This document shows positions 32,892 to 35,835 of a stretch of 38,192 nt of DNA, piece after piece; positions within the stretch are counted from its first letter, which is position 1, and every line of letters starts with the position of its first letter. The position numbers and the translations under genes are program-made. The stretch comes from Thermodesulforhabdaceae bacterium (lineage in GTDB: Bacteria > Desulfobacterota > Syntrophobacteria > Syntrophobacterales > Thermodesulforhabdaceae): positions 1-38,192 of the forward strand of contig JBBFKT010000014.1 of the NCBI GenBank assembly GCA_037482015.1. Direction: 5' to 3'. The notes under the pieces were generated by a model that did not search any database, was not told the origin of the DNA, and worked only from the letters and a program-made list of their open reading frames with translations.

Positions 32892-34523
32892 TTAACTTCC
32901 AAGAATTTCTTCAAGATCTTTCTCAGGTGTTGAAATAGGTTTAATGTTGTAATTCTGAACCAGAAAGTTCAACACATTAGGAGTAAGAAAAGCTGGAAGG
33001 GAAGGACCAAGGCGCATATTTTTTATACCAAGAGAAAGAAGCGTAAGGAGAATCGCCACGGCTTTCTGTTCATACCAGGATAGAATAAGGGAAAGTGGCA
33101 GAGAATTCACATCAGTCTGAAAAGCCTCGGCAAGAGCCAGTGCCACCTGGATGGCGGAATAGGCATCATTGCACTGTCCCATATCGAGCAGTCTGGGAAG
33201 ATCTCCTATAGTTCCCAGATCTTTGTCGAAGAATCGGAATTTGCCGCAGGCGAGAGTAAGCACCACACAGTCCTCTGGAACAAGTTCCACAAAGCGAGTG
33301 TAATAATTTCGTCCGGGTTTTGCTCCATCACAACCAGCAACCAGGAAGAAATGTCTGATCCTCCCTGCTTTAACTGCTTCAACTATTTTGCCAGCCACAC
33401 TCAGCACAGCGTTCCTTGCAAATCCAACCATGACATACTTACCATTGCTATCATCGGCATAACCAGGAAGTTCAAGAGCTCGCTTGATAACCGGCTCAAA
33501 GTTTCTGTCCTTTATGTGCTCAACTCCGGGCCACCCCACAAGACCACAGGTAAAAATGTTCTTTTCGTAAACATCCCTTGGCTTCTGGATGCAGTTTGTG
33601 GTCATCAAAATAGCACCGGGAAATTCAGCAAACTCCTTCTGCTGGTTCTGCCAGGCAGTGCCGTAGTGTCCGTAGAAATGGGGATATTTTTTGAGTTCGG
33701 GATAACCATGAGCCGGAAGCATTTCGCCGTGAGTGTAAACGTAAATGCCTTTACCTTCCGTCTGCTTCAGAAGTTCTTCTAGATCCTTAAGATCATGCCC
33801 CGAAATCAGAATGGCTTTGCCCTTTTTGTGTCCTAAAGGCACCTTTGTGGGCACGGGATGGCCGTATGTGCTCGTGTGAGCGTTATCAAGAAGTTCCATA
33901 GTTCTGAGATTCACCTTGCCACAGCGCAATACCCAGTCCACCGCTTCCTGAAGGGAAAGATCCTTTCTGAGCGTTGTAGCAAGCGCTTCATGCAGGAAGC
34001 GATAGATTTCGTCATCACTTTTACCGAGAATTTGAGCATGATCGGCATAGGCTGCAATGCCTCTACAGCCGAAAATCAGAGTGTGTTTAAGGGATCTTAT
34101 GTCAGGATCTTCGTCTTTATCAGCCAGAAATCCTACATTCTCACCCTGAGCCACCATTTCGTCCTTAGTAGAAGCAGGAACAAAGTTTGCCGGACCATCT
34201 CCGAAATCGGTTTTACCCCCAGCAGCCCTAACCTTTTCCTTTAGCCTTTCTCTAAGTTCAACTGTTTTTCTTATTAGCGGCGGGAAGCGATCGGGATCGA
34301 AGTTTACATTTGTTAGCGTGGAAAAGAGTGCTTCGCAGGTGAAAGCATTGGCTTCTTCATCTTTGATTCCAAGTTTCCAGGCTTCCTGAGCCACCTGGCT
34401 GAGTCCTTTAACAGCATAGAGCAAAAGATCCTGTAAGCTTGCCACATCCGGTTGTTTCCCACAAACACCTATCTTTGTGCAACCTTCGCCCTTTGCCGTC
34501 TGTTCGCACTGGTAGCAAAACAT
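32892..34523 (-). CDS. hcp: Hybrid cluster protein (hydroxylamine reductase)
   Basis: 543 residues, full length. The N-terminal cluster motif is Cys 3, 6, 15, 21 (C-x2-C-x8-C-x5-C), as in class I proteins of anaerobes such as Desulfovibrio, where it holds a [4Fe-4S] cluster. Hybrid-cluster ligands lie in ISGHDLKDLEELL, MTTNCIQKP, FTCGLVGWPG, LACGKFRF and DMGQCNDAYSAIQVA. It reduces hydroxylamine to ammonia in vitro and NO to N2O in some bacteria, so it detoxifies reactive nitrogen. GGGGAGGG precedes the ATG. The promoter region carries a consensus FNR/HcpR-type box at -41.5 and a leader hairpin; two terminators follow the gene, so it is monocistronic. No Hcr reductase is adjacent. Confidence 0.97.
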   Translation of the reverse strand: MFCYQCEQTAKGEGCTKIGVCGKQPDVASLQDLLLYAVKGLSQVAQEAWKLGIKDEEANAFTCEALFSTLTNVNFDPDRFPPLIRKTVELRERLKEKVRAAGGKTDFGDGPANFVPASTKDEMVAQGENVGFLADKDEDPDIRSLKHTLIFGCRGIAAYADHAQILGKSDDEIYRFLHEALATTLRKDLSLQEAVDWVLRCGKVNLRTMELLDNAHTSTYGHPVPTKVPLGHKKGKAILISGHDLKDLEELLKQTEGKGIYVYTHGEMLPAHGYPELKKYPHFYGHYGTAWQNQQKEFAEFPGAILMTTNCIQKPRDVYEKNIFTCGLVGWPGVEHIKDRNFEPVIKRALELPGYADDSNGKYVMVGFARNAVLSVAGKIVEAVKAGRIRHFFLVAGCDGAKPGRNYYTRFVELVPEDCVVLTLACGKFRFFDKDLGTIGDLPRLLDMGQCNDAYSAIQVALALAEAFQTDVNSLPLSLILSWYEQKAVAILLTLLSLGIKNMRLGPSLPAFLTPNVLNFLVQNYNIKPISTPEKDLEEILGS

Positions 34524-34563
34524 AGCCTGTTCCCTCCCCTTGATTGTTTAAGGTTTACCCCAA

Positions 34564-34608
34564 AGGATGAGGAAACATCACAGCAACTGAAGAAATTCTC
34601 CTCATCCT
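34564..34608 (-). promoter_or_regulatory. Hairpin in the hcp 5' leader
   Basis: AGGATGAGGA (34564-34573) pairs with TCCTCATCCT (34599-34608): a perfect 10-base stem with a 25-base loop. Relative to the inferred start at 34616 the stem begins at about +9 and ends 40 bases before the ATG. There is no U-tract after it, so it is more likely an mRNA-stability or regulatory leader structure than a terminator. Confidence 0.55.
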
Positions 34609-34622
34609 GATTTTCACAACTG

Positions 34623-34628
34623 TTTATG
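34623..34628 (-). promoter_or_regulatory. Inferred -10 element of the hcp promoter
   Basis: Read on the minus strand the hexamer is CATAAA. With the usual seven-base offset transcription would start at 34616. That puts the FNR-like box centre (34657.5) exactly at -41.5, the classic class II activator position. The agreement supports both assignments. Confidence 0.5.
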
Positions 34629-34650
34629 CCACTCTTATGGAGAAGAAACC

Positions 34651-34664
34651 TTGATCTGGATCAA
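34651..34664. promoter_or_regulatory. FNR/HcpR-type operator upstream of hcp
   Basis: TTGATCTGGATCAA is a perfect dyad that matches the E. coli FNR consensus TTGAT-N4-ATCAA and resembles HcpR (CRP/FNR family) sites known to control hcp in Deltaproteobacteria. It lies between the tgt stop and hcp, 128 bases before the hcp start codon. It predicts activation by an anaerobic or nitrosative-stress regulator. Confidence 0.75.
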
Positions 34665-34680
34665 TCAGGTAAAAATTTGA

Positions 34681-35835
<1,155 letters not shown>

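Follow-up and report, generated by a model that had tools for sequence, protein, structure and literature searches.

A conserved FNR-like dyad upstream of hcp in a Thermodesulforhabdaceae bacterium, probably an HcpR operator with class II geometry

Several described systems bear on the control of hcp, the gene for the hybrid cluster protein, to which nitric oxide (NO) reductase activity has been linked (excerpt of PMC10210160). For the regulator HcpR, Rodionov and colleagues tied Ser or Pro at position 180 to FNR-like motifs (excerpts of PMC1274295 and PMC545781), and the deltaproteobacterial motif was published as wyTTGACnnnnGTCAArw together with a helix of the Pro180-Glu181-Arg185 type (excerpt of PMC1274295). 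According to excerpts of the work on D. desulfuricans, HcpR1 binds haem and HcpR2, with Fe-S clusters, figures in the model as a repressor of hcp (PMC5701242); the HcpR of P. gingivalis is described as sensing NO by haem (excerpt of PMC12750200). Furthermore, FNR usually acts at class II promoters from a site at -41.5, and in the excerpted survey the sites of 19 of 23 activated E. coli promoters with a known start fall within 4 bases of this position (PMC3688515).

The window, the whole stretch of 38,192 nucleotides analysed here (contig JBBFKT010000014.1, assembly GCA_037482015.1), encodes on its minus strand a hybrid cluster protein of 543 aa (hcp, 32892-34523; scoring above cut-off against NF003658 at 827.7 bits and against TIGR01703 at 764.3 bits). 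Upstream of hcp and in the same direction lies tgt (34681-35823, minus strand; TIGR00430, 539.4 bits), which ends in a TGA stop 17 bases from the dyad TTGATCCAGATCAA (34651-34664, minus strand; TTGATCTGGATCAA on the plus strand). Read directly from the letters, both half-sites of this TTGAT-N4-ATCAA dyad are perfect, and it is the sole perfect copy in the window, in which copies with up to two mismatches are as numerous as expected by chance (32 against 31.6). The -10-like hexamer CATAAA (34623-34628, minus strand) follows 22 bases after the dyad; setting its last base at -7 places the predicted transcription start at 34616 (minus strand; the nearest purine is 34615), relative to which the centre of the dyad (34657.5) falls at -41.5. 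The preliminary description had claimed exactly this arrangement, and its letters and arithmetic proved correct on re-reading. CATAAA is a poor -10 hexamer that lacks the TA, the bases at -1 to +2 are GTG, and the -35 region reads TCAAGG (TCAARG in the box alignment), with TTGACA absent from it. As a separate observation, AAAATTTGATC (34672-34682), a single half-site that lies upstream of the box and overlaps the end of tgt, repeats AAACCTTGATC (34646-34656) at a distance of 26 bases.

From the predicted start, hcp would have a 5' leader of about 92 nt (34524-34615, minus strand), and the distance from box start to hcp start codon is 141 bases here and 95 in a same-genus genome. This leader contains a perfect 10-base inverted repeat (AGGATGAGGA/TCCTCATCCT, 34564-34573 and 34599-34608). 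Leader structure was set aside because the RNA folds only slightly better than its shuffles (z -1.41) and the repeat was not seen in the same-genus leader.

Conservation was assessed in two overlapping sets of relatives. The genome set comprises 59 genomes, 49 of them with hcp, and yields 59 readable promoters in 47 genomes, the present one included; left out of this count are G033 and G046, in which the N-terminus of hcp is missing, and partial extra hcp copies in G014, G022 and G044. The locus set comprises 80 relatives (L014-L093), of which at least L017, L020, L037 and L044 also belong to the genome set. In the genome set, a perfect TTGAY-N4-RTCAA precedes hcp at 50 of 59 promoters and in 42 of 47 genomes, with 0.1 promoters expected from shuffles; it was not found in the other five genomes (G006, G007, G008, G055 and G018, the last with no more than 96 bases of readable upstream sequence). 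The locus set has a perfect box within 300 bases of hcp in 50 of 80 members, compared with 0.1 of 81 letter-shuffled upstream regions when the present locus is included. Moreover, TA stands exactly 22 bases downstream of 51 of the 55 boxes in the genome set (43 as TANNNT), the CATAAA of the window being among the four exceptions, and of 37 of the 50 boxes in the locus set, where the next most frequent offset, 24, accounts for 12. The relatives in the locus set, aligned on the box, favour CAA at -1 to +2 (frequencies 0.54, 0.52 and 0.70, with +1 corresponding to 34616 in the window). This layout is that expected of a class II activator, and the geometry proposed earlier is supported by the distance from box to hexamer kept in relatives, with the start itself a prediction from sequence. 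Four loci titled as Nitrospirae or Thermodesulfovibrio (L052, L056, L077 and L089) have ATGAY-N4-RTCAT near-dyads at about -76 to -99 upstream of hcp in place of TTGAY boxes, which perhaps reflects a different specificity.

We consider it very probable that the dyad is an HcpR operator through which hcp is activated in class II fashion in response to NO, the binding, the activation, the signal and the exact start all being predicted. HcpR, a dimeric regulator of the CRP/FNR fold encoded elsewhere in the genome, would bind the dyad and, from -41.5, touch the sigma and alpha subunits of RNA polymerase, and hcp transcription would then start from a promoter whose -10 is poor and in which a -35 cannot be recognised. 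By analogy with the studied HcpR and DNR proteins, the signal would be NO, perceived probably through haem, and Hcp would then remove the NO. Observed here are the box, its spacing, its conservation, a sole regulator whose best matches in relatives are linked to hcp, and another box, which precedes an operon of an HD-domain and a ferredoxin gene. Counted against the HcpR operator are the absence of TA from the local CATAAA and of CAA from the local +1 context, a regulator unlinked from hcp in all five genomes of its own family, the five boxless genomes, the poorly resolved deep backbone of the regulator tree, the missing NCBIfam HcpR match and the published model of HcpR2 as a repressor. It is unlikely, in our estimation, that HcpR instead represses hcp from the same box until relieved by NO: a site at -41.5 does cover the -35 region, and HcpR2 has been proposed to repress hcp in D. 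desulfuricans (excerpt of PMC5701242), but an exact distance of 22 bases from box to -10 in 51 of 55 cases is demanded by polymerase contact and not by repression, and a -35 region reading TCAAGG, without TTGACA, also argues against repression.

The preliminary description had presupposed a CRP/FNR-family regulator in this genome, and one is indeed present, a protein of 231 aa (G000:C7:40401-41096, equivalent to L010:4402-5097; PF00027, 89.9 bits, and PF13545, 58.4 bits). It is the one complete CRP/FNR regulator among three cNMP-binding proteins, the others being a lone domain and a DUF294/CBS protein; an extra HTH_Crp_2 match belongs to a protein that by eye is GntR-like, and a second CRP/FNR-type DNA-binding regulator was not found in the assembly, which is 95.45% complete. 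Profile matches and a structural model (pLDDT 91) give it a cNMP-binding-like domain followed by a Crp-type HTH. In a structure search with this model, the best VIA-align rows are CRP/FNR-fold regulators (Z scores between 25.4 and 20 and rmsd values between 1.9 and 3.1, over alignments of about 200-225 residues), a result that speaks to the fold and does not tell haem apart from other ligands. By sequence, its best match of solved structure is DNR of Pseudomonas aeruginosa (3dkw), and the HcpR of P. gingivalis (entries 6NP6 and 9DAY) is not among the matches listed in the sequence or structure searches. Of 12 NCBIfam models matched by the regulator, none is for HcpR and none scored above cut-off. 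In a regulator tree that included no characterised HcpR, the family clade is fully supported (100/100), the named relatives are mostly Thermodesulfobacteriota, the deep backbone lacks resolution, and EcCRP, EcFNR, L089, L091 and PaDNR have long branches.

The recognition helix, TTPESISR, presents Pro180, Glu181 and Arg185 in CRP numbering and thus has the combination of Ser/Pro180 and Glu181 that distinguishes the HcpR1 branch; the Arg180 and TGTGA half-site of CRP are replaced by Pro180 and a TTGAT box. Of the two candidates named earlier, HcpR and a true FNR, HcpR is favoured from sequence as the user of the box because the protein is the sole regulator found, has best matches that lie divergent from hcp in 23 of 46 genomes with both genes, has a Pro-Glu helix and has no FNR-type cysteine cluster at its N-terminus. 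A true oxygen-sensing 4Fe-4S FNR acting here is very improbable: each half-site is an exact match to the FNR consensus of E. coli, but the cysteines of the sole regulator found are confined to 28 and 201, whereas FNR of E. coli has them at 16, 20, 23, 29 and 122, the remaining domain matches in the genome belong to the three proteins of other types named above, and at this level of assembly completeness an overlooked FNR is improbable as well.

Around the regulator gene, a box with one mismatch, TTGACCCAGTTCAA, lies upstream (L010:3932), with an ORF of 58 aa (L010:4038-4214) between the two, and an FMN_red/flavodoxin-like gene (L010:5076-5711) overlaps the end of the regulator by 22 bases; hcpR1 of D. 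desulfuricans, according to an excerpt of PMC5701242, also adjoins a flavodoxin gene.

A match to the regulator of this genome is present in 52 of the 59 genomes of the genome set, and among the 46 that have both genes the best match lies within 3 kb of hcp in 23, always divergently; such linkage occurs in 21 of 25 genomes of one family, in none of five of the family to which this bacterium belongs and in none of eight of another. Among members of the locus set with more than 1 kb of upstream sequence, a regulator divergent from hcp accompanies 16 of 45 boxed and none of 24 unboxed loci. In many relatives, hcp is followed by genes for an HD-domain-like protein, an assignment that is our own reading and for which Pfam and NCBIfam models gave no match, and for a 4Fe-4S protein (Fer4); with at least 2.5 kb of downstream sequence, this holds for 17 of 40 boxed and one of 25 unboxed loci of the locus set. 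The usual hcp-HD-ferredoxin operon is split in the present family, in which hcp stands apart. Here the HD-domain-like and 4Fe-4S genes (L006:1275-1973 and 517-1251, on G000:C9) form a separate operon with a box of its own. In this genome and in G001, hcp, the HD-ferredoxin pair and the regulator are each on a different contig, and in G002-G004 the regulator gene and the HD-ferredoxin pair diverge from each other. All five genomes of the family have a box at hcp and a box at the HD-ferredoxin pair, the latter with TA-hexamers, read by eye, at 22, 22, 22, 21 and 21 bases.

A scan of this genome, as proposed in the preliminary description, gives seven perfect TTGAT-N4-ATCAA copies against two in a reversed control. 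Two of the seven are intergenic, at hcp and before the HD-ferredoxin operon, and five lie within ORFs; the dyad alone is thus weak evidence, whereas its place taken together with its conservation in relatives makes a strong case. The looser TTGAY-N4-RTCAA has 12 perfect copies, nine of them in ORFs, against nine in the reversed control; the third intergenic one (G000:C15:22682) fits a composite of box and -10 only with one mismatch. Without mismatch, this composite picks out exactly hcp and the HD-ferredoxin operon, matches that do not count as independent evidence because the -10 part was widened to YANNNW so as to admit the CATAAA of the window and about two matches are expected by chance, on our own estimate, among 24 oriented dyads. 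That the dyad is a chance palindrome merits almost no credence, since a box recurring at fixed spacing in 42 of 47 genomes, where shuffles give 0.1 in 59 promoters, outweighs the occurrence of several such dyads inside genes.

What is unusual at this locus is limited to the TTGAT variant, with its possible coupling to the helix, and to the splitting of an operon with its boxes kept. As a tentative suggestion, which we hold to be rather unlikely, HcpR and its operators in this family may have drifted jointly from TTGAC to TTGAT with an Ile-to-Thr change immediately before position 180 of the recognition helix while the operon was split, each piece keeping its class II box. T-type half-sites accompany Thr at this place in 10 of 12 cases and Ile in 20 of 62, counted in a table corrected by moving to Ile by hand three rows mis-parsed by the helix pattern (G013, G031 and G035); the Thr rows are not independent, because five of six come from one family.

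Judged from the sequence comparisons, the deltaproteobacterial HcpR regulon, a form of control already known, appears to gain another member, an ordinary but solid result. A promoter without annotation is thereby linked to one regulator, whose minimal predicted regulon would be hcp and the HD-domain/ferredoxin operon, and the 22-base spacing fixed across dozens of genomes sharpens the probable activation of hcp by HcpR to a precise prediction of class II geometry.

With the class II promoters of E. coli FNR, as excerpted, the locus shares the dyad sequence and, by its predicted start, the -41.5 position, but not a regulator with the cysteine cluster. The Desulfovibrio HcpR with site TTGTGAnnnnnnTCACAA is likewise a named regulator of hcp in sulfate reducers, but the excerpt of PMC545781 gives it a CRP-like site and Arg180, in contrast to the Pro180 and TTGAT found here. 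DNR of Pseudomonas aeruginosa (3dkw) has the same PETxSR helix (IQPETFSR) and a published site similar to TTGATnnnnATCAA, whereas its Pseudomonas targets, in the excerpts, are nir, nor and nos genes, and its place in the tree is among other paralogues, apart from the present regulator. Finally, the deltaproteobacterial HcpR regulon, in the excerpts of PMC545781 and PMC1274295, differs by having TTGAC/GTCAA where TTGAT/ATCAA is found here, a change of C to T in both halves, and the present hcp, HD-ferredoxin pair and regulator are distributed over three contigs, yet the two have in common hcp as a target and a ferredoxin as a co-target, both of them predicted here, a recognition helix with Pro or Ser at 180 and an FNR-like dyad.
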